Assembly (NCBI GenBank): GCA_025362495.1
Contig: JANYGI010000088.1
Coordinates: forward strand, 1 to 45,540
Source of the DNA: Byssovorax sp.
GTDB taxonomy: Bacteria > Myxococcota_A > Polyangia > Polyangiales > Polyangiaceae
DNA: 45,540 bases
Direction of reading: 5' to 3'
In this document: in pieces, positions 3,581-42,691 of the stretch
Position numbering within the stretch: position 1 is the stretch's first letter
How the letters are laid out: every line of letters begins with the position of its first letter
The notes under the pieces: model-generated
What the model was told of the DNA's origin: nothing
Database searches by the model: none
The model's input: the letters and a program-made list of their open reading frames with translations, nothing else
Translations under genes and position numbers: made by a program

Positions 3581-3660
3581 CGTCGAGGCCTCCTCGGCGC
3601 AAGAAAACCGGGGTGATCCGGCCGGAGATGCGCCGCGGCGTCAACCCGGCCGCGGCGCGC

Positions 3661-4227: not shown

Positions 4228-4311
4228 CGACGAACATAGCCCGGGCGTCGCGCCCTGGCTCGCGACGAGTGGTGCCGGGGGTGATTGCGGCCACAGCGAC
4301 CTTGCGGTCGA

Positions 4312-4929
4312 TCAGCGCCGCGGGGAGGCGCCCGCGCGGATCGCCGCGAGCACCTCGTCGGCGCGGCGCTCCGTCGTGGCCTTCTCGCCCGCGTTGTCGA
4401 TGACGTGATCGGCCGCGGCGATCTTCGTCGCGAGCGGGAGCTGCGCGGCGATGCGCGCGCGGGCCTGCTCTTCGGTCGACTCGTCGCGGGCCATGGCGCG
4501 CGCGAGCTGGACGTCGAGCGGGACGGCGACGACGACCAGGGGGCGGAAGGCGTCGCCGAGGTTGTTCTCGACGAGGAGCGCGGCCTCGTAGCACGCGAGC
4601 GGCTCGCCGGCGGCGTCGAGCGCGGCGATGCGCTGGGCGCTGCGAGCGGCGATGCGCGGGTGGAGGATGGCGTTGAGGGCGCGGCGCTTGTCGGCGGCGG
4701 CGAAGACCAGATCGCCGAGGCGGGCGCGATCGAGCGATCCGTCGGGCGCGATGACGCCGTCGCCGAAGGCCGCGACGATCGCCGCGAGCCCTTCGCTGCC
4801 CGGCTCGACGACCTCGCGCGCGATCTGATCGGCGTCGATCACCGGCACGCCGCGGGCGCGAAAGCGGGCCGCCACGGTGCTCTTTCCCGAGGCGAGGCCG
4901 CCGGTGAGGCCGAAGACGAGGATGCTCAT
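4312..4929 (-). CDS. coaE: dephospho-CoA kinase
   Basis: Last step of coenzyme A synthesis: ATP-dependent 3'-phosphorylation of dephospho-CoA in the cytoplasm. The 205-residue protein begins MSILVFGLTGGLASGKST. GLTGGxASGKST is the CoaE P-loop signature. It is followed by 'VPVIDADQIAREVV' (the DAD substrate motif), 'LNAILHPRI' and 'ATKIAAADHVIDNAG', all typical of the family, and the length is normal. An upstream in-frame start at 5043 would overlap the preceding Nudix gene by 110 bases, so I place the start at the ATG at 4929. It is the last gene of the pncB-pncA-Nudix-coaE run, only 4 bases after the Nudix stop. Confidence 0.93.
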   Translation of the reverse strand: MSILVFGLTGGLASGKSTVAARFRARGVPVIDADQIAREVVEPGSEGLAAIVAAFGDGVIAPDGSLDRARLGDLVFAAADKRRALNAILHPRIAARSAQRIAALDAAGEPLACYEAALLVENNLGDAFRPLVVVAVPLDVQLARAMARDESTEEQARARIAAQLPLATKIAAADHVIDNAGEKATTERRADEVLAAIRAGASPRR

Positions 4930-22930: not shown

Positions 22931-24952
22931 TCAGCGCGGGAGGACGAGCCGCATCGTGAAGATGTAATCGACGGACACGGGCTTTCCCTGGAGCGTGGCC
23001 GGAGCGTACTTGCTCGCCGCGAGGGCGTTCAAGACGGCCTGTTCCATGTGGGGAACACCCTTGACGATCCGACAGCCCGTGAGCGCGCCAGAGGTGGTGA
23101 CGACGCACTTGGCGATCACCGTGCCTTCGACCTTCGCCTCCAGGGCCTCTCGCGTGTAGGCCGGGGCCACGGCCGAGATCGGCGTCGGACGGGCCATCCC
23201 CTCTTCGAATCGCATCACCGCAGGAGGCGCCGCCGCGACGGGAGCCGCGGTGGGGACGACGGCCGCGACGGTGGGCGCGACCGTCGGCGGGGCGACGGCG
23301 ACGGGCGTGGCAGCCGGGCCGGTGTCGACCGAGGCGGCCGCCGTGGTGACGGCGGTGCCGGTGGCGATCGTCGGTGAAGCGTCGCCGTTCGCGGGCTCGA
23401 GCCGCAGCGTCGCCTTCTCGTCGTCGGGCGCCACGATGATGATCCCGGGCTTGAACCCGGCGCGCGTCGCGAGGAGCTTGTGCTCGAGCGTGGCGCCGGC
23501 GCCCTTCCAGACGAGCTCGCACGGGGTCGACAGGCAGACCTCGGTGCCGCGATCCGAGACGCGCGCGCCCGGCGGATCGGTCTCGATCCGCACGAGGCGC
23601 AGCCCCGCGGCGGGGTTCGACGCCGTGACGGCGAGCGCCGCGGCCGGCACCGCGACGGGCACGTACACCGACTCGATGATCCGCGGCTGGCTCGCGGCCT
23701 CCGGCGGCCGCCGCGCCAGCACGAGGGCCGCGCCGCCGCCGCCGATGAGCGCGGCCGCGAGCGCGACGGCGTAGACGCGGTACGCCGGGGCGGCCGGCGC
23801 TCGCCCGATCCCGGTGATCGTCGACGGTGCCTGCGGCGGAGCGAGCGAGTCGCCGCCGACGGAGGCCTGGGTCACCGACTGCGGGCCGCGCGACGAGGTG
23901 GGCCCGGAGCTCATCAACCCGGTGGGGCCGCCGTCGGGGCCCGAGCCCGTCGCCGCGCGCGGCCCCGACACCGACCGGGGCCCCGACTCGCCGGCCCGGA
24001 GCGCGGCGGCCTCGAAGTCGACCTTGGCGCGCGGCAGGCTCTCGAACGTGTCGGTGATGTCGCCGCCCGAGGCGCGCTTCAGCGCCTTGATCAGATCGCG
24101 CATCGACGCGTAGCGCTTGTCGGGGCTCTTCTCGAGGCAGCACATCACCACGGCCTCGATGCCGGGCGAGATCGACGCGCCCGGGTTGCGCGCGGCGAGC
24201 GGCGGGGGCGCGTCGTTCACGTGGGCGACGAGGGTGCTCATGCTCTGCCGCTTCTCGAACGGAGGCTTTCCGCAGAGCATTTCGTAGAGGATGATCCCCA
24301 CCGCGTAGACGTCGGTGCGCGCCGAGATCTCGCCGCTGGTGACCTGCTCGGGCGCCATGTACTTGGGCGAGCCCATGAAGACGCCGGTCTGGGTGAGATC
24401 CTGGCCCTTGCCGGTGACGTCTTTCACGAGGCCGAAATCGAGCACTTTGACGAAGTCCGTCTCCTCGCCGCGCTCGCACAGGAGCACGTTGCCGGGCTTC
24501 AGATCGCGGTGGACGACGCCGAGCGCGTGGGCCTCGTGGACGGAGCGGCAGATCTGCTGGGCGATGTGGCTGGCGCGGGCCTCGGGGATCGACCCTTCCT
24601 CGTGGATCGCACGGTGCAGCGTGCGCCCGTCGAGGTACTCCATCGCGATGTAATAGACGTCCTTCGCCTCGTCCTTGCCGTAGTCGAAGATGGTGACGGT
24701 GTTGGGGTGACTGAGCCGCGCGGCCGTCGAAGCTTCGAGCGAGAAGCGCTTGTGGAACTCGGGATCGCGGTTGCCCTCGTAGTTCGGGCTCAGCACCTTG
24801 AGCGCGCAGACCCGCCCGAGCGCCGATTGCTCGGCCTTGTAGACCTTGCCCATCCCTCCGCGCGCGATGAGCGAGACGATCGTGTACCGACCGTTGATCG
24901 TCATGCCGAGGAGCGGATCGGGCTCGTCCGCGCTGCCCTTGGTCTCGCTCAT
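22931..24952 (-). CDS. Ser/Thr protein kinase fused to PEGA-like and TonB C-terminal domains
   Basis: A 673-residue single-pass protein. The kinase domain (about 22-292) is intact: Gly-rich 'IARGGMGKVYKAEQ', Lys52, His148-Arg149-Asp150, Asp172-Phe-Gly and Ala200-Pro-Glu. A disordered Gly/Ser/Pro stretch leads to one membrane segment (about 393-413). Outside it are a PEGA-like beta module (about 451-518; 'RIETDPPGARVSDRGTEVCL'), an Ala/Pro/Thr linker and a TonB_C-type domain (about 585-672; 'ISAVAPAYTREALEAKVEGT', 'NALAASKYAPATLQGKPVS'). The topology puts the kinase in the cytoplasm and the TonB-like domain in the periplasm. I start at ATG 24952; longer frames run into ftsB. An active kinase linked to a TonB-like domain suggests sensing or control of an envelope partner. 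Confidence 0.88.
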   Translation of the reverse strand: MSETKGSADEPDPLLGMTINGRYTIVSLIARGGMGKVYKAEQSALGRVCALKVLSPNYEGNRDPEFHKRFSLEASTAARLSHPNTVTIFDYGKDEAKDVYYIAMEYLDGRTLHRAIHEEGSIPEARASHIAQQICRSVHEAHALGVVHRDLKPGNVLLCERGEETDFVKVLDFGLVKDVTGKGQDLTQTGVFMGSPKYMAPEQVTSGEISARTDVYAVGIILYEMLCGKPPFEKRQSMSTLVAHVNDAPPPLAARNPGASISPGIEAVVMCCLEKSPDKRYASMRDLIKALKRASGGDITDTFESLPRAKVDFEAAALRAGESGPRSVSGPRAATGSGPDGGPTGLMSSGPTSSRGPQSVTQASVGGDSLAPPQAPSTITGIGRAPAAPAYRVYAVALAAALIGGGGAALVLARRPPEAASQPRIIESVYVPVAVPAAALAVTASNPAAGLRLVRIETDPPGARVSDRGTEVCLSTPCELVWKGAGATLEHKLLATRAGFKPGIIIVAPDDEKATLRLEPANGDASPTIATGTAVTTAAASVDTGPAATPVAVAPPTVAPTVAAVVPTAAPVAAAPPAVMRFEEGMARPTPISAVAPAYTREALEAKVEGTVIAKCVVTTSGALTGCRIVKGVPHMEQAVLNALAASKYAPATLQGKPVSVDYIFTMRLVLPR

Positions 24953-25053
24953 CACCCCGTTGACGGCGGAGTATAGACGCGATGCGGCGCGGACTGCCAC
25001 CTCGGCGAGGGCTCCACTCGTGCTCGGCGCCGCGAGCGTCTCGTCGGGATCGG

Positions 25054-25353
25054 TCAGCGGCGCGTCTGGAACTGGAAGACGACCTCGGTCTGACGCACCA
25101 GGCCGAGGTTGTCGCGGGCGATGCGCTCGACGGCGCCGGGGTCGTCGCGGAGGCGGCCGACGCGGCCCTTGAGGGAGTCGATTTCGCGGCGCAGCGCGGC
25201 GTTCTCGTCGTCGACGTCGCCGAGCTCCTTCTCCAGGCCGCGCAGGCGCGGGAGGCCCTGGGGCGCGAAGATCATCACCGGGGCGCCGACCACGGCGACG
25301 ACCAGCATCGCCACGGGGAGGATGCGCTCGAGGAGCCGCGTCGTAGGCGTCAC
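25054..25353 (-). CDS. ftsB: FtsB/DivIC-type septum protein
   Basis: A small bitopic division protein that forms the FtsQ-FtsB-FtsL complex and helps activate septal peptidoglycan synthesis. From the GTG at 25353 it has 99 residues: a short N-terminus, one membrane segment ('ILPVAMLVVAVVGAPVMIF'), a coiled coil ('LEKELGDVDDENAALRREID' onward) and the conserved ending 'DPGAVERIARDNLGLVRQTE', matching the FtsB 'xExIEExARExLGLVKPGE' pattern. A longer TTG start at 25389 is possible, but that TTGACC sits where a -35 box for the GTG start would be. It lies 101 bases upstream of the kinase-TonB gene on the same strand and may be co-transcribed with it. Confidence 0.85.
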   Translation of the reverse strand: MTPTTRLLERILPVAMLVVAVVGAPVMIFAPQGLPRLRGLEKELGDVDDENAALRREIDSLKGRVGRLRDDPGAVERIARDNLGLVRQTEVVFQFQTRR

Positions 25354-25555
25354 CGTGTTCGCATCGCACGACCCGCGGCGCCCGGTCAACCTTTCGTCGC
25401 CGCTCCGTCGGTTGTGCTTCGCGACGGAGCAGAAGCTTGGCTAACATCCGCCCGCGCCGCGTCCTCGGGTCCTGGAATTGTGTCGCCACGGCGGCGACGT
25501 TCAGCAGGGTGGCACCCGGAAGGCGCGCGATCGGTACCGGCTCCGAGGAGACTCA

Positions 25556-28500
25556 ATGACGATCGATATCGTGCGAGGCGAGCTCGAGCGCCTCTTCTCG
25601 CTGGATGAAATGATGGCCCTGTCGCAGGACCTCCTCGGCTTCACGCCGGAGGAGATCGGCGGAGCCGCGTCGAAGGCGTCGTTCGCCCGCGCGCTCACGG
25701 ACCGCGCCCTCGAGGTCGACGCGATCGAGGCTCTGCTCGACGCGGTGCTGGCGTCGCGCACCGAGGTCGATCCCCGGATCCGCGAGCTCGGGCAGAAGGG
25801 CCTCGTCCTCCCCGAGGAGATCAAGGTCGGCGAGACGTTCGGCGCGTTCACGATCACCAGGAAGCTCGGCGAGGGCCCGCGCGCGTTCGTCTACGGCGCC
25901 ACGAAAGACGGCGCCGATCGCACGCTCAAGGTGTACCGGCGCGAGGCGACGCGCGACGCGCGGGCGGCGCGGCGGTTCCTCACCCGCGTGCGCCTCGCCG
26001 CGAAGGTCCGCCACGAGAACCTGCCCAGCGATCTCGAGGTCGGCATGGAAGGCGGCCGCGTCTGGGTGTCGTACGCGCCGATCGAAGGGCAGCCGCTCTC
26101 GGTGCGCATCGGGCGCACCGGCCCGCTCCACATCAACGAGGCGCGCAACCTCCTCCGCGGCGTGATCGGCGCGCTCGGCGCGCTCCACGACAAGCAGCTC
26201 GTCCACGGGGCGATCAAGCTCGACAACGTGATCGTGGCGCGCGGCGAGGGCGGGACGTCGCGGCCGGTCCTCGTCGACGTCGGCGGCGATCACCTGCTCG
26301 GCGGCGCGTGGTCGTCGGCGGCGCTCGCGAAGACGGCGAGCCCCGAGCAGCTCCGCGGCAAGACGGCCGACGCGTCGAGCGATCTCTACTCGTTCGGCGC
26401 CCTGATGTTCGAGGTCCTGACGGGCAAGCCCGTGTTCCCGGGCGACACCGGCGCCGACGTGGCGATCGGCCACCTGACGAAGGACGCGCCCGCGCCGAGC
26501 GTGACGGCGCCCCGCGGCTGGGTCGGCAAAGAGCTCGACGACCTCGCGCAGAAGCTCCTCCAGAAGACGGCGACGGCCCGCCCGAAGAACGTCGCGGCGG
26601 TGCTCGAAGCCCTCGAGCCGGCGGCGAAAGCAGCCGGGAAAGAGGCCAAGAAGGGCATCAGCGACGACGAGCTCAACGAGCGCGTCGATCTGCTCCTCGC
26701 CGATCCGGGCGACGGCCAGGCGGCCCTCGCCGTCGAGAGCGCGATCGAGCTCGGCGCCGACGCGCACAAGGTCGCCGACGCGTTCAGCATCGCCGCCGAC
26801 TCGATCGAGGAAGGCGACGACGAGATCTCCAAGATCAAGAACGTCGAGTTCAAGAAGTCGCTGCTGTTCCGCGCCGCGCGCATCTACGAGTCGACCCTCA
26901 AGGATCAGGCGAAGGCCGAGAGCGTCTACGCCTCGCTGCTCGAGCTCGATCCCGAGGACGACATCACGTTCACGGCCCTCGAAGAGATCCGGAAGCACCT
27001 CGGCAAGCACGAGGAGCTCGTCGAGATGCTCCTCAACCGCAGCGAGACGTCGACGAGCCACTCCGAGCGCGCCCGCGCCCTCAACGAGATCGGGCACCTC
27101 TACCAGCGCGATCTCGACGACAAGGAGCAGGCGGCCTTCGCCTTCGCCAAGGCCCTCGGGCAGGACACGCAGAACGACGGCTATGCCATCGATCTCGAGC
27201 GCGCCGCCGGCAGCGACATGAAGCTCTGGGCCGAGGCCCTGCAAGAGCTGAGCACCGCGTCGACCAACACCGAGATGCCGCCCGAGGCGAAGATCGCCCT
27301 CTTCACGCGGCTCGGGCGCTGGTACTCCGAGAAGGTCGCGCGGCCGGATCTCGGCCTCCCGTGCTTCCAGGCGGTGCTCTCGGTCGATCCCGCGCACGAC
27401 GGCGCGCTCGAAGGCACGGCGCAGGTCTACCGCCGCGCCCAGCAGTGGCAGGAGCTCGGGCAGGTGCTGATCGCCCGCGCCGATCGCGCGCCGACGCCCG
27501 CGCAGGCTCGCGACATCCGCGCCGAGGCCGCCGACATCCTCGAGACGCGCCTCAACGAGGCCGGCCACGCGCGCGATCTCTTCGAGCAGATCTTCGCCGA
27601 GGATCCCGGCCACCAGAAGGCGACGGACGCCCTCGCGCGCATCTACCAGCGCGCCGAGGACCACGCCGGCTTCGCCAAGATCCTCGAGCGCCGCGCCGAG
27701 GCCCTCCGCGGCGAGGCCAAGGTCGAGACGATCTGCAAGCTGGCCGAGCTCTACGAGGACCAGCTCAACAACCTCCCCGAGGCCACGCGCCGCTACGAGG
27801 CCGCGCTCGAGCTCGATCCCCAGGCGCTGACGGCGCTGCGCGGGCTCGACCGCATCTACAACCGCACCGGGAAGTACAAGGAGCTGCTCCACAACCTCGA
27901 GCGGCAGGTGTCGATCAGCGCGACGCCGCGGCAGAAGATCAAGCTCTTCGAGCGCATCGCCGGCATCCACGACGAGGAGTTCCTCGATCACATCAAGGCC
28001 GCCGAGGCCTACGAGGCGATCCTCCAGATCGACGGCGCGCACGAGGGCTCCCTCACCGCGCTGGTGCGCCACTACCGCGCGCTCGATCGCTGGGAAGACT
28101 GCGTCAGCCTCTACGAGAAGAACCTCCGCATCGCGACGGAGGACAAGCGCCGCATCGAGCTCCACCTGGCGATGGGCCGCGTGCTCGTCGATCAGGTCGG
28201 CTCGCCCGAGCGCGCGCGCCACGCCTTCGAGAAGGTGCTGGAGCTCGATCCCGATCACGCCGGCGCGCTCGAGTCGCTCGCCAGCGTGCGCGCCGCGACC
28301 GGCGACGCGATGGCCGCCCTCTCGGCGATCGAGTCGCTCGCCGCGCGCGCGACCTCGCCCGAGAGCAAGGCCGATCTCTGGATCCGCGCCGCCAAGATGC
28401 TCGAGGAGAAGGGCGATCGCGACGGCGCGATCGAGCGCTACAAGAAGGCCCTCGACGCCCAGAAGAACAACCTCGCCGCCGCCGCGGCGCTGCGCGCGGC

Positions 28501-30862
28501 CTACCTCCACCGGGGCGACGCGACGAGCGCGGTCGAGCTGATCGGCCGCGAGATCGAGTCAGCCGAGGGCAACCTCGCCAAGGCGCGCCTCTACGGCGAC
28601 ATGGCCGAGCTGCTCCGCGAGAAGCTCAAGGACAACGATCGCGCGAAGGAGGCGGCCACCAAGGCCGTCGATCTCGATCCGACCAGCATCCTCGGGCTGA
28701 TGATCACCGGCGACATCGCTTTCGACGCCGGTCGCTTCATCGAGGCCTCGAAGAGCTACGAGTCGATCGTCAACCGGGTCGACGCGCTCCCGAAGGCGCG
28801 CGGGATCCAGGTGCTGATGCAGTACGTCGACGCCCTCGGCAAGAGCGGAGGGACCGAGAAGACGGCCGCCGCCGCGAAGACGCTGCTGACGATGGCTCCC
28901 GACGATCCGGGCGCGATTCGCCGCGCGGCGAAGGCCAGCCTCGACACCGGCAAGGCCAAGGAGAGCGCCGCGCTCTACCAGGATCTCGTCGAGCGCTTCG
29001 GCGACACCCTCGAGACCGACGAGAAGGCCGAGACGATGCTCCGCTTCGGTGAGGCGCGTCTCAAGGCCGGCGATCCCGACGGCGCGATCTCCCCGCTCAA
29101 CGAGGCCTCGGACCTCGCGCCCGACTCGCCCGAGCCGATCCTCCTGCTCTGCAAGGTCTACGAGGCGAAGAAGGATTACGAAGAGGTGGTGCGCCTCAAG
29201 ACGCGGCGCCTCGACGTCGTCGGCGGCGACGAGCGCAGCGCGCTGCTCCTTGAGATCGGCGAGATCCTCGCGAGCCAGCTCAACGATCGCACCCGCGCCG
29301 CGAAGAGCTACGTCGCCGCGCTCGACGAGCGCCCCGACGATCGGAAGATCCTCACCAAGCTGATGCAGCTCTACAGCGAGGAAAAAGACTGGGGCAAGCT
29401 GGTCGAGGTCGTCGTCAAGCTCGCGAGCAAGGTCGACGACAAGAAGCAGAAGGCGAAGTACCTGCACACCGCCGCCATCGTGACCGCGCGCCAGATCGGC
29501 GATCTCGACAAGGCCGTGCAGCTCTACGACCAGGTCCTCGACCTCGATCCGTCGCTCGACAAGGCCCTCGCCGAGGCCATCGACATCCACGGCGACAAGA
29601 ACGATCACGAGGGCGTCGAGCGCCTGCTCAAGGTCGAGCTCGAGCGCGCGACCGATCGCGGCGACAACGCCATGATGCTCGCCACGTTCGAGAAGCTCGG
29701 CGTGCTCTACAAGGACAAGCTCGGCTGGACGGGCGAGGCCATCGACGCCTACGAGGCCGCGCAGACGCTCGAGCCGGACAACGACGTTCGCAACGAGCTG
29801 CTCGCGACGCTCTACGCGAGCGATCCGGCGCAGTACCTCGACAAGGCCGTCGCGGCGCAGACGCCGATCCTGCGGCGCCACCCCTACAAGCCCGACGCCT
29901 ACCGCCTGCTGCGCAAGCTCTACACGGAGTCGAAGCGCGCCGACGCGGCGTTCTGCCTCTGCCAGGCGCTGTTCTGCATGAACTTCGCCGAGCCCGACGA
30001 GGAGCGCTTCTTCCGTCGCATGCGCTCCGAGACGGCGGCCGCCGCGCAGGATCGCTTCAGCGACGAGGACTGGTCGGCGAGCGTGATGCACACCGACGCC
30101 GATCCGCTGCTCACGGCGATCTTCACGATCATCGAGCCCGCGGTGCTCAAGAAGAACGGGCAGGCGCTCGAGGCGCTCGGCTACCAGCAGGCCTACGCGC
30201 TCGATCTCTCGCGGCACCCGTACCCGATGTCGCAGACGCTGTTCTACGCGGCCGGCGTGCTCGGGATGGAGCCGCCGCTCACGTTCCAGAACCCCAACGA
30301 CGGGAGCGGCGTCTCGTTCCTCCACGCGCACACGCCGGCGATCGTCCTCGGCGCCGCGGCGCTGGCGACGGAGCTGCCGACGCAGGCCGCGGCCTTCATC
30401 GCCGCGCGCCACCTCACGTACTACCGCCCCGGCCTCTACCTGCGGCACCTCGTGCCGACGGGCACCGGCCTCCGCGCGTGGCTCTTCGCCGCGATCAAGC
30501 TGATCACGCCCGCGTTCCCCGTCGCCAAGGAGCTCGAGGGCCAGGTGAAGGAGAACATGGCGGTGATCGAGCCGATGATAGTTGGCCCGATGCGCGATCA
30601 GCTCGCGAGCGTGGTGACCAAGCTGCTCCAGTCGGGAGCGATCGATCTCAAGAAGTGGGTCGCCGCCGTCGACCTCTCCGCCGATCGCGTCGGCTTCATC
30701 ATCGCCAACGATCTCGAGCTCGCGAACGAGATGATCAAGGCCGCGGACGAGGCCTCGTCGGCCGTGCAGCAGAAGGAGCGGCTCAAGGAGCTGCTGCTGT
30801 TCGCCGTGAGCGAGGAGTACTTCGCGCTGCGGCAGAAGCTCGTGATCAACATCGACGCGTGA
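25556..30862 (+). CDS. giant pseudokinase-TPR scaffold protein (1768 residues)
   Basis: The start is the ATG at 25556 with GAGGAG 5 bases upstream; a longer frame upstream lacks such a site. Residues 1-75 are a compact helical domain. Residues about 97-355 have a kinase fold: Gly-rich 'KLGEGPRAFVYGA', Lys125, 'SDLYSFGALMFEVLTGKPVF'. The catalytic loop reads His217-Gly218-Ala219-Ile-Lys221 in place of HRDLK, so the catalytic Asp is lost; DFG is Asp241-Val-Gly and APE is SPE. From about 385 to 1500 is a very long array of TPR-like helical pairs ('AESVYASLLELDPEDDITFT', 'AEAYEAILQIDGAHEGSLTA', 'ARHAFEKVLELDPDHAGALE'). The last 250 residues form a conserved-looking non-TPR helical domain. No signal or membrane segment. 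A cytoplasmic scaffold role is inferred. Confidence 0.88.
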   Translation: MTIDIVRGELERLFSLDEMMALSQDLLGFTPEEIGGAASKASFARALTDRALEVDAIEALLDAVLASRTEVDPRIRELGQKGLVLPEEIKVGETFGAFTITRKLGEGPRAFVYGATKDGADRTLKVYRREATRDARAARRFLTRVRLAAKVRHENLPSDLEVGMEGGRVWVSYAPIEGQPLSVRIGRTGPLHINEARNLLRGVIGALGALHDKQLVHGAIKLDNVIVARGEGGTSRPVLVDVGGDHLLGGAWSSAALAKTASPEQLRGKTADASSDLYSFGALMFEVLTGKPVFPGDTGADVAIGHLTKDAPAPSVTAPRGWVGKELDDLAQKLLQKTATARPKNVAAVLEALEPAAKAAGKEAKKGISDDELNERVDLLLADPGDGQAALAVESAIELGADAHKVADAFSIAADSIEEGDDEISKIKNVEFKKSLLFRAARIYESTLKDQAKAESVYASLLELDPEDDITFTALEEIRKHLGKHEELVEMLLNRSETSTSHSERARALNEIGHLYQRDLDDKEQAAFAFAKALGQDTQNDGYAIDLERAAGSDMKLWAEALQELSTASTNTEMPPEAKIALFTRLGRWYSEKVARPDLGLPCFQAVLSVDPAHDGALEGTAQVYRRAQQWQELGQVLIARADRAPTPAQARDIRAEAADILETRLNEAGHARDLFEQIFAEDPGHQKATDALARIYQRAEDHAGFAKILERRAEALRGEAKVETICKLAELYEDQLNNLPEATRRYEAALELDPQALTALRGLDRIYNRTGKYKELLHNLERQVSISATPRQKIKLFERIAGIHDEEFLDHIKAAEAYEAILQIDGAHEGSLTALVRHYRALDRWEDCVSLYEKNLRIATEDKRRIELHLAMGRVLVDQVGSPERARHAFEKVLELDPDHAGALESLASVRAATGDAMAALSAIESLAARATSPESKADLWIRAAKMLEEKGDRDGAIERYKKALDAQKNNLAAAAALRAAYLHRGDATSAVELIGREIESAEGNLAKARLYGDMAELLREKLKDNDRAKEAATKAVDLDPTSILGLMITGDIAFDAGRFIEASKSYESIVNRVDALPKARGIQVLMQYVDALGKSGGTEKTAAAAKTLLTMAPDDPGAIRRAAKASLDTGKAKESAALYQDLVERFGDTLETDEKAETMLRFGEARLKAGDPDGAISPLNEASDLAPDSPEPILLLCKVYEAKKDYEEVVRLKTRRLDVVGGDERSALLLEIGEILASQLNDRTRAAKSYVAALDERPDDRKILTKLMQLYSEEKDWGKLVEVVVKLASKVDDKKQKAKYLHTAAIVTARQIGDLDKAVQLYDQVLDLDPSLDKALAEAIDIHGDKNDHEGVERLLKVELERATDRGDNAMMLATFEKLGVLYKDKLGWTGEAIDAYEAAQTLEPDNDVRNELLATLYASDPAQYLDKAVAAQTPILRRHPYKPDAYRLLRKLYTESKRADAAFCLCQALFCMNFAEPDEERFFRRMRSETAAAAQDRFSDEDWSASVMHTDADPLLTAIFTIIEPAVLKKNGQALEALGYQQAYALDLSRHPYPMSQTLFYAAGVLGMEPPLTFQNPNDGSGVSFLHAHTPAIVLGAAALATELPTQAAAFIAARHLTYYRPGLYLRHLVPTGTGLRAWLFAAIKLITPAFPVAKELEGQVKENMAVIEPMIVGPMRDQLASVVTKLLQSGAIDLKKWVAAVDLSADRVGFIIANDLELANEMIKAADEASSAVQQKERLKELLLFAVSEEYFALRQKLVINIDA

Positions 30863-31156: not shown

Positions 31157-31867
31157 GTGAGCGCAAAGGCCGAGGCCGGCCCCTCGCCGTTCGCGCTGCT
31201 CTTCGCGCCCGATCGCGGCATGGATCGCCAGGCGCGCGTGGGGCGCGTGGGGCGGCTTTTCGTCTTCGCGTGGCTCTGCGCCCTGCTGCTCGGCGCCGCG
31301 CTCGCGTACCGCGTCGACGCGAGGAGCGTGACGCTGCAGAAGCTCGAGATGAGCGGCCAGCTCCAGACGATGAGCGATCGTCAGGTCGCCGACGAGACCC
31401 ATAACGCCGAGCGCGTCTCCGAGGTCGTGAGCATCGCCAGGGGCGTCACTTCGGTGCCGCTCCAGCTCGTCACCACGAGCCTCGCGGTCGTCGCGCTGGT
31501 GTGGTTCCTCCGTGGCCGCATCAAGGGCAGCGCCGTCGTGCCGGTCGCAGCGGCGACGCTCCTGCCCGGCGCGATCGCCAACCTCCTCGACGCGGCCATC
31601 GCGTTTCGCCACGAGGCGCTGCCGCCCGACGGCGTCGCGCTCGCGCCGCGATCGCTCGGCGCGATCCTCCCGCTCGTCGGCCACCCGCTCGTGGGCCCGT
31701 GGCTCAAGCTCGGCGGCGCGCTCGATTTCTTCTCGCTGTGGGCCGCGCTGATGCTGGCCTTCGGCGTCGCCGCGGTCGGACAGATACCGCGCCGCAACGC
31801 GCTCACGGGCACGCTGGTCGCGTGGGCTTGCTATCAGCTCCTCACGCACGTCGCGATGAAAGGGTGA
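31157..31867 (+). CDS. multi-span membrane protein of unknown function
   Basis: A 236-residue protein starting with GTG 31157, preceded by GGGAG. It has a soluble N-terminus of about 30 residues, a first membrane helix ('LFVFAWLCALLLGAALAY'), a charged loop of about 45 residues containing 'ETHNAERVSEVVSIARGV', and three or more further helices ('LQLVTTSLAVVALVWFL', 'VVPVAAATLLPGAIANLLDA', 'FSLWAALMLAFGVAAVG'). This layout resembles YIP1-domain (DUF1282-like) membrane proteins. It is 51 bases upstream of the MacA-like gene and co-directional with the exporter, so it may be an accessory subunit, although the link is only positional. Confidence 0.72.
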   Translation: MSAKAEAGPSPFALLFAPDRGMDRQARVGRVGRLFVFAWLCALLLGAALAYRVDARSVTLQKLEMSGQLQTMSDRQVADETHNAERVSEVVSIARGVTSVPLQLVTTSLAVVALVWFLRGRIKGSAVVPVAAATLLPGAIANLLDAAIAFRHEALPPDGVALAPRSLGAILPLVGHPLVGPWLKLGGALDFFSLWAALMLAFGVAAVGQIPRRNALTGTLVAWACYQLLTHVAMKG

Positions 31868-31918
31868 CGCGACGATCTGCCGGGGTTCGCCCCGCGGCAG
31901 GCTCGCTGGAAGAACGAC

Positions 31919-33208
31919 ATGACGAAAGGACGCTGGATACTCGCGGTGCTCATCCTCGTGGCCGTGGGGCTGGCCACGGCGCAGGGCTTGAAGCCGCACC
32001 CGCCGCCGCCGGTCGACGTCAGCACCGCGCCCGTGAAGCGGCAAGACGTCACGCGCACCGTCAACGCCGCGGGGCACCTCCAGGCGCGCGAGACGGTCAA
32101 GGTCAGCTCCAACGTCACGGGTGATCTCCTCTCTTTGTCGGTGAAAGAAGGCGATCGCGTCACGCGCGGGCAGGTGCTCGGCCAGATCGACAAGCGCCTC
32201 GAAGAGTCGCAGGTCGCTCAGTTTCGCGGCGCGGTGGCCTCCGCCGTCGCGCAGACGGCGCAGGTCGAGGCCACGATCATCCAGGACCAGCGCGACCTCG
32301 CGCGGCGCAAGCAGATGGTCGCCGAGAACCTCGCGGCGACGTCCGATCTCGAGAAGGCCGAGACCCAGCTCAAGCTCGATCAGAGCCGGCGCACCTCGCA
32401 GAACCAGCTCGTCGCCCAGAACCAGGGCCAGCTCGAGACCGCGCTCTACAACCTCTCGCGCGCCACGCTGAAAGCGCCGATCGACGGCACGATCCTCGAG
32501 CTCAACCACAAGGTCGGCGAGCGCATTCGCGGCTCCGATTTCAGCGAAGACGTCGTGCTGCTGATGGGCGGCCTCTCCGACATGGAGGTCAAGGCCGAGG
32601 TCGGCGAGCACGAGGTCGTCGGCATCCACGAGGGCGACGAGGCCAGCGTCGAGATCGACGCCATGCCCGACAAGCAGCTCAAGGGGCGCGTCGTCGCCGT
32701 CGGGAAGAACGCGCAGATCAAGAACCCGGGCACCGACGCCGAGGTCACCACGTTCTTCGTCCGCGTCGGGCTCGACACGCCGCCCGAGGGCGCGCTCCCG
32801 GGCCTCTCCGCGTCGGTCGCGATCTCCACCGCGACGCACCCGAAGGTCCTCACGGTACCGATCCAGGCGGTGACCTCGCGCGAGCCGAAGAAGAGCGACG
32901 CGCCGGCCGCGGGCAGCGCTGCGCCGGCCGCGAGCGCCACGGTGGCCGCCGTCTCTGGCAAGCCCAAGCCGTCGAAGGTGGTGTTCGTCGTCGCGGCCGA
33001 CGGCACCGCGCAGATGCGCCCCGTCCACACCGGGATCGCCAGCCGCGCCGACGTGGAGATCCTCGACGGCATCAACGAGGGCGACACCATCGTCGACGGC
33101 CCGTACCGCACGCTCGCGCGCGAGCTCGAGGACGGCCAGTCCGTCAAGGTCCTCTCGAAGGACGGCCCCGGCGCGAGCGGAAACGGCCCTCCCGGCGGCA
33201 AGAGCTGA
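31919..33208 (+). CDS. MacA-like periplasmic adaptor (membrane fusion protein)
   Basis: A 429-residue adaptor of a tripartite or MacAB-type exporter. N-terminal membrane anchor (about 7-22), then 'KVSSNVTGDLLSLSVKEGDR' and 'VTRGQVLGQIDKR' for the first half of the lipoyl-like domain, a long helical hairpin (about 90-180) with many Gln/Ala/Glu, 'RATLKAPIDGTILELNHKVG' for the second half, then beta-barrel and membrane-proximal domains. 'VLTVPIQAVTSRE' is a family hallmark. An unusual Ala/Pro/Ser insert of about 40 residues follows it before 'VVFVVAADGTAQMRPV'. GGAAG lies 6 bases before the ATG. The ATPase gene starts 9 bases after its stop. No outer-membrane TolC gene is visible in the window. 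Confidence 0.9.
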   Translation: MTKGRWILAVLILVAVGLATAQGLKPHPPPPVDVSTAPVKRQDVTRTVNAAGHLQARETVKVSSNVTGDLLSLSVKEGDRVTRGQVLGQIDKRLEESQVAQFRGAVASAVAQTAQVEATIIQDQRDLARRKQMVAENLAATSDLEKAETQLKLDQSRRTSQNQLVAQNQGQLETALYNLSRATLKAPIDGTILELNHKVGERIRGSDFSEDVVLLMGGLSDMEVKAEVGEHEVVGIHEGDEASVEIDAMPDKQLKGRVVAVGKNAQIKNPGTDAEVTTFFVRVGLDTPPEGALPGLSASVAISTATHPKVLTVPIQAVTSREPKKSDAPAAGSAAPAASATVAAVSGKPKPSKVVFVVAADGTAQMRPVHTGIASRADVEILDGINEGDTIVDGPYRTLARELEDGQSVKVLSKDGPGASGNGPPGGKS

Positions 33209-33217
33209 GCGACGACC

Positions 33218-34003
33218 ATGGCCCTGATCGAGCTCGACCACATCGGCAAGACGTACGACCTCGGCCTCACCCAGGTCGCGGCGCTGCGCGACATCCATTT
33301 CGGGATCGAGCCGGGCGAGTTCGTGGCGATCATCGGGCAGTCGGGCTCGGGCAAGTCGACGCTGATGAACATCCTCGGCTGCCTCGACGTGCCCACCGCG
33401 GGGCGCTACCGGCTGGCGGGGCGCGACGTGAGCGAGCTCTCGGACGACGAGCTCGCCGATGTCCGCAACCTCGAAATAGGCTTCATTTTCCAGTCGTTTC
33501 AGCTCTTGCCGCGCGCGAGCGCGCTCGAGAACGTCGAGCTGCCGCTGATCTACCGCGGCATCTCGAAGAAGGAGCGGCGCGAGCGCGCGGTCGAGGCGCT
33601 CGAGCGCGTGCAGCTCGCCGATCGGATGACGCACAAGCCGACCGAGCTCTCCGGCGGCCAGCGGCAGCGCGTGGCGATCGCGCGCGCCCTCGTCACGCAG
33701 CCCTCGCTCCTGCTCGCCGACGAGCCCACCGGCAACCTCGACAGCCGCACCGGCGAGGAGATCGTCAACCTGTTCCTCGAGCTCCATCGCAAGGGCAACA
33801 CCATCGTCCTCGTCACGCACGAGCCCAAGCTGGCGGCGCGCTGCCCGCGCGCGGTGCGCATCGTCGACGGCCTGGTCATCGCCGACGGCCCCGGCCGCGA
33901 GGTCGCGATGGCCAACGCCGAGGCCATGGGCGCCGAGGTCGTGGCCCAGGTGCTCGCGGCGCAGGCCGCCGCCGAAGCCCACGCCAGGAACGTCGCGCCA
34001 TGA
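33218..34003 (+). CDS. MacB/LolD-type ABC transporter ATPase
   Basis: A 261-residue ATPase of the FtsE/LolD/MacB group: Walker A 'GQSGSGKST', Q-loop in '[20 protein letters not shown]', signature '[15 protein letters not shown]', Walker B '[16 protein letters not shown]', and switch His in '[10 protein letters not shown]'. It couples ATP hydrolysis to a mechanical stroke in the partner FtsX-type permeases. In classical MacB the ATPase and permease are fused; here they are separate, and the ATPase has an extra Ala-rich helical tail of about 35 residues. It overlaps the next gene by four bases. Confidence 0.94.
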
Positions 34004-35295
34004 CGGCCTCCGCGCTCCCCCCGCTGCGCGGCAAGCCGAAGCAGCTCGGCTTCTTCCGCGGCCTCGTGCGCTTCTTCGCCGAGCTGCGCGACGCGATCGT
34101 GCAGGCCGTCCGCTCGCTCCTCGCGCACAAGCTCCGCGCGGCGCTCACCATCGCCGGCGTCTCCGTCGGCATCATGGCGGTGATCATCATCTTCATGGTC
34201 GAAGCGGGCATGCAGGCGAGCTTCGCCAAGCAGCTCAACTCGCTCGGCCCCAACACGCTCTACGTGCACAAGTGGGCCTGGGGCGTGGGCGGCAGCGACT
34301 GGTGGAAGCTCCGCAATCGCCCCGCCGTCGGCCAGATGGACTACCGCGCGCTCGTCGCCAACACCGCGTTGCCCGTGGCCATCGCCCCGGTCGCGGAGAC
34401 CCAGGCCGTGGTGGTGCACGGCGACAAAGAGATCAAGAACGTCGACATTCAGGGCACCACCGAGGCGTTCCTCGACGCCGGCGGCTGGCAGCTCCGGCGC
34501 GGCCGGTTCATCAGCGATCTCGATCACGAGCTCGGCGGCGACGCCTGCGTGATCGGCGCCGACGTGGAAGACGCGCTCTTCAAGAATCAGGATCCGGTCG
34601 GGCAACGCCTCAAGGTGGGCCCCGCCGCGCGCTGCACCGTGGTCGGCTCGCTCGTGCGCAAAGGGAGCGCTTTTGGCCAATCGCAGGACGGGACCGTCGT
34701 GCTGCCGCTGAGCTCGTTCCTGCGCTCCTTCGGCGCCAAGCGCGGGCTCGTCATCGCGGTCGTCGCGCCCGCCGGCAAGGTCATGGAAACGGAGGACGAG
34801 GTCATCTCCGTCATGCGCTCGGCGCGTCGCCTGGGGCCGGATCAGGACGACAACTTCTCCGTCAACCGGCAGGACAAGATCCTCCAGGGCTTCAACCAGA
34901 CGATGATGACGGTCAACGTCGTCGGGATCCTCGTCGGCATCATCACCGCGGCCGTGGCGGGGATCGGGATCATGAACATCCTCCTGGTCTCGGTGAAGGA
35001 GCGCACGCGCGAGATCGGGATCCGCCGCGCCCTCGGCGCGCGGCGCGCCAGCATCCTCATGCAGTTCCTCTGCGAGGCCGTGATGGTGGCGCTCCTCGGC
35101 GGTGCGCTGGGGGTCGCGCTCGGCGTCGGAGCTGCGGCGCTGATCGACATCTTGAGCCCCATGCCCACCAGCATCGATCCCCGGGTCGTCGCCGGCGGCG
35201 TCATCGGCTCGTGCATCCTCGGCGCGGTGTTCGGCCTCTGGCCGGCGCTCTCGGCCGCCTTCCTGCACCCGATCGAAGCGCTGCGCCATGAGTGA
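34000..35295 (+). CDS. FtsX/MacB-type ABC permease, first of two
   Basis: A 431-residue permease. It has a cytoplasmic start with '[20 protein letters not shown]', a first membrane helix ('[20 protein letters not shown]'), a large periplasmic domain (about 70-300) of MacB-core type, and three C-terminal helices ending with '[20 protein letters not shown]', the coupling-helix motif of the FtsX superfamily. The periplasmic domain includes '[20 protein letters not shown]' and 'VGQRLKVG', typical of MacB_PCD. It overlaps the ATPase by four bases and the second permease by eight. It probably forms a heterodimer with the neighbour. Confidence 0.92.
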
Positions 35296-36574
35296 CGCCG
35301 CTCGCCGCGTCGCGCCCGCGCTCTCGCGGAGGGCCGCGCTCTCGGCCGCCCTCGGCGCTCGCCTCGACGATCTGCGCCTCGCCTGGAGCGCGCTCAGCGG
35401 CCACCGGCTCCGGTCCGGCCTCACCCTGCTCGGCATCGTCATCGGCGTCTTCACGGTCGTCGCGATGATGTCGCTGCTCAACGGCCTGCAGTCGTCAATT
35501 GACAAGAACATGGGCGGCCTCGGCGCCGACGTGTTCCAGATCCAGAAGACGCCCAACTTCAATTTCGGTGCGCCGTCGCCCGAGGTCCAGCGCCGCAAGA
35601 AGCTGACGCTTTCGCAGGTCCTGCAGCTCCGCGCTGCGCTGCCCCTCGCGAAGCAAGTGGGCGGCGAGGTCTGGGAAGGCGGCAAGGAAATGCGCGCCGG
35701 CAGCACCCTCGATCCCGGCGTCCAGATCGCCGGCGGCACGCCCGAGTTCTTCACCAACAACAACCTGCCGATCGGCGCGGGGCGCGGCTACACCGAGGCC
35801 GAAGCGATGGGCGCGTCGCGGGTGGTGGTGCTCGGCGCCACGGTGGCCGACGTGCTCTTCCCGGGCAGCGGCGCCGTCGGCCAGCACGTGCGCCTCGGCC
35901 GCCTCGAGCTCGAGGTGATCGGCACCCTCGAACGGCAGGGCGGCAGCCCGTTCGGCGGCAACCCCGACAACGTGGCCTCGATCCCGATCGCCCTGTTCCT
36001 CGAGCTCTACGGCACGGGGCGCTCGCTCAACATCACCGTCATGGCGAAGTCGCACGGCGACATGGCCCGCCTCCAGGACCTCGCGATCGGCTCGTTTCGC
36101 ACGGTCCGCGGCCTCGACGCCAATGCCGACAACGACTTCGACATCTTCTCCAACGACTCGGCCCGGTCGACCTTCGACGAGCTCGCCGGCACCGTGACGG
36201 CGGCCGGCCTCGTGATGTGTGCCTTCACGCTGATCGTCGGCGGCATCGGCGTGATGAACATCATGCTGGTGGCCGTGACGGAGCGGACGCGCGAGATCGG
36301 GCTGCGCAAGGCCCTCGGGGCGCGCCGAGCCCGGGTGCTCATGCAGTTCGTGATCGAGGCGGTGCTCCTCGCCTTCTTCGGCGGCGTGATCGGCGTGGCC
36401 CTGGCGTTCCTGGCCACCCTGCTCGCCCGCTTCCTCCAGTTCCCGGCCGAGGTCCCGATGTGGGCCGTCGCCCTCGGGCTCGGGGTCTCCAGCAGCATCG
36501 GCCTCCTGGCCGGCATCTACCCCGCGTGGCGAGCGTCCCGGCTGGTCGCTGCGGTAGCCCTGCGCGTGGAGTGA
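35288..36574 (+). CDS. FtsX/MacB-type ABC permease, second of two
   Basis: A 428-residue permease with the same plan as its upstream neighbour: '[20 protein letters not shown]', first helix '[20 protein letters not shown]', a periplasmic MacB_PCD domain containing '[20 protein letters not shown]', and '[20 protein letters not shown]' before the last helices. The periplasmic region differs clearly from that of the first permease, so the pair is not a recent duplication. It is the last gene of the exporter operon; a hairpin-plus-T terminator follows at 36635. Substrate unknown; MacAB-like systems export peptides, lipids or macrolides. Confidence 0.92.
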
Positions 36575-36842: not shown

Positions 36843-38351
36843 ATGGCGGCAAAGAAAACCCGAAAACTGAGCAAGAAGTCCGGCAAGAAGGTGCAGAAGG
36901 CCGCCCGCCGTTCCGGCGGCTCGCGCGCCTCGGCCAAGAAGTCGGCTCCCGCTCGCGCGAAAATCCAGGCGCGCAAGGTCGCGGCCAGGAGCGCCGCGCG
37001 GAAGAAACCGGCGGCGAAGAAGGCGCCCGCTCGGCGCGCCGCGCCGGCCAAGCTGAAGAAGAAAAAGGTCGCTCCGGCCCGCGCCGCGAAGAAGGCGGCC
37101 CCCGCGAAGGCCAAGCTCAAGGTCAAGGTCAAGGCGAAGCTCAAGGCCAAGAAGAAGGCCGCGCCCGCCCGCGCCGCGAAGAAGTCCACGCCCTCGAAGG
37201 CCAAGCCCGCGAAGCCCGCGAAGCCCGCGAAGAAGGCGGCCCCCGCCAAGGTCGCCAAGGTCGCGAAGCCCGCCAAGGTCGCGAAGAAGGTCGCTCCGGT
37301 CAAGGCCGCTCCGGCCAGGGTCGTCGCGCCCGCGAAGAAGAGCGCCCCGTCGGTCAAGGCGCTGCGTGAGTTGGAGCCGGCGCCCCGCAGCGGTCCGCCG
37401 TCGCGCGGCGGTCGCGAGCGGCCCAGCGCGCCGGCCCCGTCGCACGCAGGCAAGCGCGGCTCCGAGCCGCCGATGGGCAAGGCGGGCAAGGGCGGCAAGG
37501 CCAGCAAGCCGGGCCGCGAGCGCCTCGTGCGCGAGCCCCCGTCGCGCCTGATCACCATGCCGCTGCCGATGATCCAGCCGCCGAAGCGGCTGACGGTCGA
37601 GGAGCGATCGGTGACGATCGACACCCGCCTCGCCGCCCAGACGGAGGACTTTCGCCGCCGTTACATCGACAGCTTCGACATGTCGTGGATTTATCACGAC
37701 AGCGCGCTCGAGGGCGTCGTCTACACCTTCGACGAGCTCCGCACGGCCCTCGCCGGCCAGACGGCCCCCGTCGCCGATTCGAGCCTCCAGCCGACGTACG
37801 ACGACATCCGCCGCCACAAGGAGGCCATCGAGTACGTCCGCGACTTCGCGATGAAGAAGAAGCTGCCGGTCACGCTCGACGTGATCAAGAAGATCTATTT
37901 GATCCTCCACCCGGCCGAGGGCGACATCAAGACGGTCAAGTACCGGAAGGACATCCCCCAGCACCGCCTCTACTTCCACGAGTACGCCGCGCCCGACAAG
38001 ATCGCCTACAAAGTCCGGCAAATCGTCGACTGGCTCAACGATCCGGAGACGCGCAAGACGCGCAACGGCGTCCGGATCGCGGCGCGCGCTCACTACGATC
38101 TGCTGCGCGTTTACCCCTTCCCCGTCGACAGCGGGAAGGCGGCGCGGCTGTTCATGAACCTGCTGCTGATGCGCTCGGGCCTGCCGCCGGCGATCCTCCA
38201 CTCGACGGAGCGGCAGCGCTACTACGAGGCCCTGAAGGGCTCGGCGACGACGGTGCTGCAGATGGTGCAGGAGGCCGTGGAGAACGCGCTCTCGAGCGTC
38301 GAGAAGCTCCTCGATGAGCACGAAACGAAGAAGCGCGGCTTCGTCTCCTGA
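36843..38351 (+). CDS. histone-H1-like tail fused to a degenerate Fic-domain protein
   Basis: A 502-residue two-part protein. Residues 1-175 are almost only Lys, Ala, Pro, Arg, Val and Ser ('AKPAKPAKPAKKAAPAK'), like eukaryotic histone H1 tails or AlgP, so nonspecific DNA binding is likely. Residues about 250-490 resemble Fic proteins: 'IYHDSALEGVVYTFDELR' fits the helix carrying the inhibitory Glu (Glu290-Gly291), 'RRHKEAIEYV' and 'TLDVIKKIYLILHP' follow in the family order, and the core is 'VYPFPVDSGKAARLFMNLLL' then 'SGLPPAIL'. Canonical HxFx(D/E)GNGRxxR here is Y424-P-F-P-V-D-S-G-K-A-A-R435: His is Tyr, Asp is Val, Asn is Ser, first Arg is Lys. Fic AMP-transfer chemistry is therefore unlikely. 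nth overlaps its end and uvrA follows. Confidence 0.82.
   Translation: MAAKKTRKLSKKSGKKVQKAARRSGGSRASAKKSAPARAKIQARKVAARSAARKKPAAKKAPARRAAPAKLKKKKVAPARAAKKAAPAKAKLKVKVKAKLKAKKKAAPARAAKKSTPSKAKPAKPAKPAKKAAPAKVAKVAKPAKVAKKVAPVKAAPARVVAPAKKSAPSVKALRELEPAPRSGPPSRGGRERPSAPAPSHAGKRGSEPPMGKAGKGGKASKPGRERLVREPPSRLITMPLPMIQPPKRLTVEERSVTIDTRLAAQTEDFRRRYIDSFDMSWIYHDSALEGVVYTFDELRTALAGQTAPVADSSLQPTYDDIRRHKEAIEYVRDFAMKKKLPVTLDVIKKIYLILHPAEGDIKTVKYRKDIPQHRLYFHEYAAPDKIAYKVRQIVDWLNDPETRKTRNGVRIAARAHYDLLRVYPFPVDSGKAARLFMNLLLMRSGLPPAILHSTERQRYYEALKGSATTVLQMVQEAVENALSSVEKLLDEHETKKRGFVS
36846..37350 (+). repeat. low-complexity Lys/Ala/Pro coding region
   Basis: Irregular tandem copies of AAG/GCC/CCC-type codons, including three direct copies of AAGCCCGCG near 37200-37230, encode the basic tail of the Fic-like protein. 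A shorter region of the same style (38362-38520) encodes the tail of endonuclease III. Such DNA can expand or contract by slippage. Confidence 0.6.
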
Positions 38352-42337: not shown

Positions 42338-42691
42338 ATGACCGAGCCCACCCGCGTCGGAGACATCATCGACGGGAAATACCGGGTCGAGCGCGTGCTC
42401 GGCCGGGGCGGGATGGGGATCGTGGTCGCCGCGCGCCACCTGCGCCTCGGGCAAGATGTGGCGATCAAGTTCCCCGTCGCGCGCCTCAGCCTTCGTTCCG
42501 ACGTGGTGGCGCGGCTGGTGCGCGAGGGGCGCGCCGCGATGGCGATCCGCAGCGAGCACGTGGCGCGGGTCCACGACGTCGGGACGCTCGACGGCGGCGA
42601 GCCGTACCTGGTGATGGAATACCTGGTCGGCCACGATCTCGGGGCGATCCTCGCCGGATCCGGGCCGCTCGCGATCGGGCGCTCGCCGTGA
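42338..42691 (+). pseudogene. truncated Ser/Thr kinase, N-lobe only
   Basis: The frame encodes 117 residues: 'GKYRVERVLGRGGMGIVVAA' (Gly-rich loop), 'DVAIKFPVARL' (Lys of VAIK), 'AIRSEHVARVHDVG' and 'PYLVMEYLVGHDL', the N-lobe and hinge of a Hanks kinase. It stops directly after 'GPLAIGRSP'. The whole C-lobe (HRD, DFG, APE and beyond, about 170 residues) is missing. The next 340 bases, in another frame, look like the distal tail of the same kinase. A deletion joining hinge to membrane region with a frame change explains this best. It has no enzymatic potential. Confidence 0.85.

Follow-up and report, generated by a model that had tools for sequence, protein, structure and literature searches.

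The forward-strand gene at positions 25,556–30,862 of contig C178 (GenBank JANYGI010000088.1) from a Byssovorax sp. genome encodes a protein of 1,768 amino acids (aa) that we read, from its sequence, as a large noncatalytic cytoplasmic scaffold: a paralogue of the gliding-motility protein GltI that carries an EAD7-like adaptor and a pseudokinase as its head. We hold this reading with a confidence only slightly above even. The window that we analyzed is this one entire contig (45,540 nucleotides), which belongs to a genome of 10.84 Mb. An earlier note on the window had described the gene product as a pseudokinase–tetratricopeptide repeat (TPR) scaffold; the description fits, and the HGA motif in the catalytic loop is not a private mutation, but HGA does not define the family, in which 21 of 58 aligned rows keep the catalytic aspartate. 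In the mechanism that we propose, the scaffold would work via binding and not chemistry. Its TPR solenoid and a dead M48-like domain would serve as the arm for docking to a machine of the cell envelope, and a partner would be recruited or sensed by the head, made up of the EAD7-like adaptor and the degenerating kinase. Kinship with a gliding-motility scaffold makes it probable that the protein holds such an envelope machine together rather than doing chemistry.

The 1,768-residue frame is real, as the note had claimed. It translates without an inner stop, and full-length matches of nearly equal length, at 33–78% identity in many genomes, exclude a chance origin. Behind the head, Pfam TPR matches are spread in stretches between residues ~437 and 1360, which bears out the TPR-like array that had been proposed to follow the kinase. 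We place the solenoid at residues ~370–1440 (26,663–29,875), where collinearity with a GltI-type protein begins at ~440. The remainder, residues 1440–1768 (29,873–30,859), is a domain common to GltI-type proteins across the Myxococcota; it is conserved, as predicted, but measures ~330 residues instead of the 250 originally given. A Kyte-Doolittle scan of the protein found no 19-residue stretch with a mean above 1.47, and hence none that is membrane-like. With no strongly hydrophobic stretch, the proposed cytoplasmic location is reasonable as judged by hydropathy alone. The suggestion that the gene is well expressed was not borne out: its GC content at third codon positions is 0.95, against 0.86–0.94 in four neighbors, a comparison that contained no highly expressed set.

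The TPR and C-terminal parts together are, judging from alignment, a paralogue of a gliding scaffold of the GltI/AgmK type (GltI/AgmK is MXAN_4863 in M. xanthus). The second-best match in the same genome is a 3,849-aa frame on contig C129, which is 30% identical and collinear over residues 440–1768. Upstream of that frame lie TPR-matching proteins of 690, 1,286, and 502 aa (the matches of the first two are below Pfam cut-offs), along with an FHA protein of 685 aa; behind the frame, no gene resembling gltJ was seen. In Myxococcus xanthus, cluster G1 comprises gltD (1,191 aa, TPR), gltE (471 aa, TPR), gltF, gltG (640 aa, FHA), and gltH, followed by gltI (4,132 aa, TPR) (PMC3169522). We take the 3,849-aa protein to be GltI on account of this similar gene order and not by comparison with the M. 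xanthus sequence. According to one review, GltI connects AglQ with MreB as a large scaffold (PMC13104615); another states that the threading of GltG and GltI through peptidoglycan is untested (PMC12288465).

We surveyed 60 genomes of the same taxonomic family, evenly drawn from a larger group, with eight candidates scored per genome. By hand count, 34 of the 60 contain a GltI-type row in a frame of 3,360–4,017 aa; further rows are shorter, many of them at contig ends. The window protein occurs beside a GltI-type protein in the genome, not instead of it. It shares with the GltI-type proteins defined by gene order the TPR array and the ~330-aa C-terminal domain, at ~30% identity, and it differs from them in size and in its head: a GltI would be expected to have thousands of residues (3,353–4,677 in the GltI-size frames examined) and no kinase, whereas the window protein is 1,768 aa long and begins with EAD7-like and kinase domains. 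The earlier view that no standard family covers the protein is correct insofar as no library names the whole, but not for the TPR and C-terminal parts, which appear to form a paralogue of the GltI/AgmK type.

Of 112 genomes sampled from the phylum, 56 have a match to the C-terminal domain (E ≤ 1e-5), and in the listed frames the domain ends no more than about 30 residues before the end of the frame. Among the longer frames that contain it, only L123 and L124, which come from the same order, showed a kinase profile. The kinase profile is absent from 17 frames of 1,362–1,799 aa (L125–L142 less L139, which gave no frame with the domain), from five of 3,384–4,677 aa, and from 15 of 494–1,150 aa, including two that a contig start truncates. 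On a quick tree of 119 C-terminal domains, the kinase-bearing rows need three changes, whereas shuffling gave 40 on average; in the printed tree, L028, a fragment of the family's own frame, and L143, a short protein, account for two of the three. (This tree and those below are quick ones, with support from the Shimodaira–Hasegawa-like approximate likelihood ratio test only.) Two further proteins of the same genome, L003 (contig C171, 666 aa) and L005 (contig C139, 1,054 aa), match the domain, and the 666-aa frame has no kinase profile. Elsewhere, a 754-aa frame (L069, 2650–3672, minus strand) that also has this domain lies near a kinase-bearing copy in genome G020.

Searches with Pfam (52 members), NCBIfam (the window copy), and a profile against the PDB left the C-terminal domain unnamed, giving only TPR-like matches at its start or matches at chance level, and Pfam M48 matched none of the 52 members. 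A likeness to M48 metallopeptidases was first suspected by eye and then tested by profile comparison. The 52-member profile gave an hhalign probability of 96.3% against 27 mixed M48 proteins from Myxococcota (30 candidates, three of which were dropped as false frames), 94.2% on repetition, and 91.2% with the sides swapped, and controls (kinase and head profiles, 30 column shuffles, and a reversed profile) reached at most 0.7%. With a single M48 subfamily as the target, represented by 26 rows gathered from protein L165 of the same genome (contig C179), the value was 98.2%, with E = 3e-14 and a score of 101.8; the E-values hold for single comparisons. The first ten rows of the profile, which represent the window family, gave 97.1% alone and the other 42 gave 97.9%, and 30 shuffles reached at most 0.9% and a score of 19.8. 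The homologous region covers residues 1543–1768 (30,182–30,859).

Homology extends over the M48 core, including the helices that bear the HExxH motif and the third ligand, and the zinc motif itself is lost. We aligned 116 domains with three M48 proteins; in the window protein, RHLTY (residues 1618–1622; 30,407–30,421) takes the place of HExxH. In the 116 domains, the first His at this place is found in 3 domains, the Glu in 1, and the last His in 0, and HExxH occurs nowhere in any of the 116. VDLSADRVG of the window protein (residues 1705–1713; 30,668–30,694) corresponds to the third-ligand helix with Glu changed to Asp; this position is Asp in 86 and Glu in 24 of the 116 domains. Unlike M48 proteins (PF01435; the L165 subfamily), the domain has lost HExxH in 116 of 116 cases and is fused to a TPR array near the end of the protein. 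As far as profiles can tell, it is an M48-like metallopeptidase without an active site, which the earlier note had overlooked, and its fold may serve as a docking surface.

The kinase domain occupies residues 93–365 (25,832–26,650). Pfam Pkinase matches residues 99–344 (E = 1.2e-18), a sequence search of the PDB found StkP (E = 3.3e-23), and Foldseek found Stk1 (1e-13; the C-lobe of the model is poor), so that profile and fold matches both indicate a Hanks-type Ser/Thr kinase fold. Lys125 (the ATP-site lysine; 25,928–25,930), Asn224 (the metal-site asparagine; 26,225–26,227), Asp241 (26,276–26,278; the DFG position, where the window protein reads DVG), and HGAIK at 217–221 (the catalytic loop; 26,204–26,218) are where the note had placed them. 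The defects that it described are also real, and they go further: besides the change of the catalytic Asp to Ala219, the αC Glu is replaced by Arg144 (25,985–25,987) and the Arg of HRD by Gly218. Two members of the set that defines an active Hanks kinase (Lys, αC Glu, HRD Asp, Asn, and DFG Asp) are consequently replaced in the window protein, by Arg144 and Ala219.

We examined these positions in a family alignment of 61 rows, to which some genomes contribute more than one; 58 rows were used. The excluded rows were L028b (a C-terminal fragment), L049 (which has lost its N terminus at a contig end and reads HGA), and L071 (from which most of the kinase region is absent and which reads HGG). No row has Glu at columns 142–146, and none has Arg at position 218 (Gly in 57, Ala in 1). 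Position 125 is Lys in 42 rows and Arg in 14, with one Leu and one Gln; position 219 is Ala in 23, Asp in 21, Asn in 13, and Thr in 1; and Asn224 and Asp241 are kept in 51 and 55 rows, respectively. Residues that hold the fold are nearly constant (Pro263, Asp276, and Arg342 in 58/58, Glu264 in 57/58) while the αC Glu and the HRD Arg are gone in every row, which indicates that the fold has been kept and the catalytic set lost. The positive control consisted of four ordinary kinases that the same genome encodes, placed in the same alignment: all four had the αC Glu, the catalytic Asp, and DFG, and three had the HRD Arg (the fourth reads HQD).

On a tree built from residues 1100–1768, with the kinase columns left out, position 219 changed between Asp and non-Asp at least seven times, and the Phe of DFG required one change. 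In the 17-row clade that contains the window protein, position 219 is Ala in 14 rows, Asn in 3, and Asp in none. The idea that HGA is a local error was rejected on this ground, Ala being common to 14 of the 17 rows; HGA is no private mutation of the window protein, but neither is it family-wide. From the aligned rows, the marks of the family are the lost αC Glu and the lost HRD Arg, not HGA.

The residues that persist lend some substance to the alternative that the protein is still an enzyme, in which Lys125, Asn224, and Asp241 bind ATP for slow phosphotransfer or AMP transfer to partners held by the TPR arm. Lys, Asn224, and Asp241 are each frequent at the counts given above, Lys, Asp, Asn, and Asp occur together in 13 of the 58 rows, and one 10-row clade retains both HGD and DFG. 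Kinase folds that lack the usual residues can have other activities, as in SelO. Given the 21 rows with Asp and the 13 with all four residues, part of the family might bind or use ATP. For the window protein itself we regard an enzymatic role as unlikely, as the αC Glu and HRD Arg are absent from all 58 rows, Asp is absent from position 219 throughout its clade, and even Lys125 has given way to Arg, Leu, or Gln in 16 rows. Under the scaffold reading, which we prefer, the head could act as a nucleotide- or partner-responsive switch.

The first 70 residues (25,556–25,765), also overlooked by the earlier note, resemble effector-associated domain 7 (EAD7, PF19960), an all-helical adaptor domain. 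Helices are predicted at residues 3–13, 16–25, 31–34, 40–53, and 57–67, and the block has a predicted local distance difference test score (pLDDT) of 77–90. We scanned 51 of the 58 N termini singly (the window protein and 50 of the 57 references): 41 matched EAD7 at E ≤ 1, with a best E of 4.9e-8, and E9, L10, E11, and L27 are invariant in the 51 rows. Of ten members examined in full, nine matched EAD7 in a single register (E ≤ 0.12) and the tenth did not match; none of the ten reaches the cut-off of 32 bits (the highest score was 29.2 bits), and the best scorer of the scan may clear it. The head is thus like EAD7 in length and register, and unlike it in that the window protein and the nine matching members score below the cut-off and that no convincing partner copy was found among the candidates scored. 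When the same genome was searched with the family profile, with 150 of 463 candidates scored, the hits were the window protein and one weak place (E = 0.067). A plain Pfam EAD7 search found nothing, which is no evidence of absence, since the window protein itself also escaped it.

In bacterial conflict systems, EADs serve as small adaptors that work through homotypic contact, usually with a second copy carried by a different component, and disrupted catalytic residues are seen in most of the kinase domains that these systems contain (PMC7159879). The similarity to EAD7 therefore raises the question of a nucleoside triphosphate-dependent conflict (immunity or cell-death) network, in which the EAD7-like domain would couple homotypically to effectors, as EADs do when they extend such systems, and the pseudokinase would be an inert occupant of the effector position. 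We consider this very improbable: a convincing second EAD7 copy is missing among the candidates scored in the genome, the gene is present and uncut in the majority of the family's genomes, and no vWA or MoxR match was obtained in 18 scanned window proteins, the sole STAND-type match lying inside UvrA.

Matches to the protein at E ≤ 1e-100 were found in 58 of the 60 surveyed genomes, a tally that also counts the second, GltI-type protein. As the two are mixed there, we made a hand count of rows that extend into the N-terminal part (query start no later than residue 105, E ≤ 1e-100), which gave 49 of 60 genomes, including the window's own. Three genomes (G036, G043, and G053) show later parts only, two of them at contig edges, and eight (G001, G003, G011, G017, G019, G023, G049, and G058) have no N-terminal copy among the listed matches; G019 and G058 are single-contig genomes of one genus. 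Named orthologues come from Sorangium cellulosum So ce26, So0157-2, and So0008-312 and from Minicystis rosea, and uncut rows span 1,753–1,818 aa from the aligned start. In genome G055 the orthologue (L075) consists of two overlapping frames of 1,514 and 595 aa, which reflects either a frameshift or a sequencing error.

To the extent that gene order bears on the machine served, it points to type II secretion in some members of the family. We compared 44 loci from 38 genomes; the flanks are of very unequal length, some very short, so all counts of neighbors are lower bounds. Gsp-type neighbors occur in 10 of the 44 loci (10 genomes), and each of the three types, GspN, GspM, and GspL, is present in 9; eight of the 10 loci fall in one deep branch of the tree and two in another. 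At one such locus Pfam identified T2SSM (4.3e-6; 27.5 bits, cut-off 27.8), PilM_2 (9e-12), and T2SSK (2.8e-7); the label GspN is our own reading, as Pfam gave only a weak YdbH-like match. A gene encoding an MshEN domain is divergent to the scaffold gene in 14 of the 44 loci (14 genomes; Pfam was run on two). In the MshEN proteins at L077:3636–4790 and L038:7821–9386, both on the minus strand, Pfam finds no ATPase domain.

These neighbors, and the precedent of a pseudokinase in another secretion system (EssB), would suit a dedicated assembly factor or regulator of type II secretion, whose arm binds the inner-membrane platform (GspL/GspM) and whose head exerts control. We judge this role improbable, because 34 of the 44 loci, including the window, have no such neighbor in the flank examined. 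The Gsp-type stretch also keeps a DivIC gene and, by eye, genes for methylmalonyl-CoA mutase and MeaB, so plain old gene order may explain the linkage. For the scaffold that we favor, the machine is presumably an envelope complex, and in some relatives perhaps the type II secretion apparatus.

In the window itself, the scaffold gene is flanked by a divergent gene for a kinase–TonB protein and is followed downstream by genes for a Yip1-like protein, HlyD, an ABC protein, two MacB-type proteins, a Fic protein, endonuclease III, and UvrA; HAD and ArgS genes are also among its neighbors. The divergent gene (22,931–25,489) encodes a Ser/Thr kinase with a TonB C-terminal domain, which looks active because HRD and DFG are kept. 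A 117-aa frame at 42,338–42,691 contains a kinase N-lobe only. Endonuclease III was found in 8 of the 44 loci.

The Fic gene (36,843–38,351, plus strand) encodes a FICD-like protein (Pfam Fic, 1.6e-7; FICD in the PDB, 3.2e-19) in which the catalytic His is replaced. It lies downstream of the scaffold orthologue in the window's clade, the linkage being present in 10 of the 44 loci. Compared with the Fic motif, which is also visible in the FICD alignment, the catalytic His has become Tyr in nine of the orthologues and Phe in one, and GNG has become DSG in all ten. The window copy carries a long Lys/Ala-rich, histone-H1-like tail (37% Lys/Arg in the first 170 residues). With the catalytic His absent in 10 of 10, Fic/AMPylation chemistry was set aside as a partner activity. 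The stretch that separates the scaffold gene from the Fic gene (31,157–36,574; genes of Yip1-like, HlyD, and ABC type and two of MacB/FtsX type) looks like an insertion, since in the nine other Fic loci the Fic gene follows the scaffold gene within about 1.2 kb. The MacB-type transporter was likewise set aside as a partner: in the flanks examined, no HlyD or FtsX gene lies beside other orthologues, and an ABC gene is present in three, on the opposite strand.

Several results weigh against the scaffold reading. On the side of the arm, the window gene stands outside any cluster of gltD-E-F-G-H-I-J type, unlike its paralogue on contig C129. The papers also disagree about GltI, which is listed without a transmembrane part in Table 1 of one (PMC3169522) and called transmembrane in another, where AgmK is a transmembrane protein of 3,812 aa (PMC9120999). 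The link of the C-terminal domain to M48 is carried by sequence profiles, as the AlphaFold model built from nine sequences is unusable (mean pLDDT 42), and it depends on one subfamily, as the value against the mixed M48 set drops to 8.1% once three L165-like rows are removed. With regard to the head, the window's own EAD7 match is weak (E = 0.089; 13.0 bits against the cut-off of 32), and the single weak place found by the family profile is a poor candidate for a second copy. In the window protein, Lys125, Asn224, and Asp241 could still bind ATP, and in relatives, given the 13 rows with Lys, Asp, Asn, and Asp and the 10-row HGD/DFG clade, catalysis is conceivable. Finally, no type II secretion genes lie beside the window gene.

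Parts of this architecture recall known proteins. The Ser/Thr pseudokinase families ActPs1–3, GLW, CP1, DYD, and DLHK are similar in combining a Hanks fold with lost catalytic residues, and differ in which motifs are lost; the terms Myxococc, TPR, and tetratricopeptide are absent from the text of the review that describes them (PMC12599244). EcpK of M. xanthus is likewise a pseudokinase proposed to be a scaffold in a myxobacterium, but it is of the bacterial tyrosine-kinase type and belongs to exopolysaccharide synthesis (PMC12004946). SgmX shares with our reading of the window protein its large size, its TPRs, a cytoplasmic location, and action on an envelope machine, but it measures 1,060 aa and has TPRs at either end, and no kinase is described in it (PMC7519303); as its layout differs by that paper's description, SgmX was set aside as the nearest relative. 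In the literature covered (myxobacterial pseudokinases, Sorangium kinases and TPR proteins, GltI/AgmK, and M48; most subscription papers lay outside the search), no pointer to the 1,768-aa protein or to an M48-like domain in GltI was seen, and GltI and M48 were not found together in one paper.

A wider idea, which we offer as a possibility that we ourselves regard as doubtful, is that the Myxococcota have assembled a class of giant scaffolds out of enzymes no longer in service. Fixed near the C terminus of GltI and its many paralogues, a dead M48-like module would be the docking device shared across the phylum for envelope machines, and one paralogue in the Polyangiales would have added an EAD, a kinase that decays lineage by lineage, and a conserved, dead-looking Fic neighbor. 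The result would be a switchable binding hub that uses enzyme and signaling folds as surfaces only and that may sit on the type II secretion platform. Within the gliding machine GltI ranks among the largest components, and the published accounts consulted give it a scaffold role and no mechanism for its C terminus. If that C terminus is a dead M48-like protease, GltI and its paralogues gain a fold and a testable surface. The kinase heads, for their part, form a series of decay on one fixed architecture, with Glu and Arg gone throughout and the catalytic Asp still changing, and intact-looking and broken heads may thus be compared on the same scaffold.

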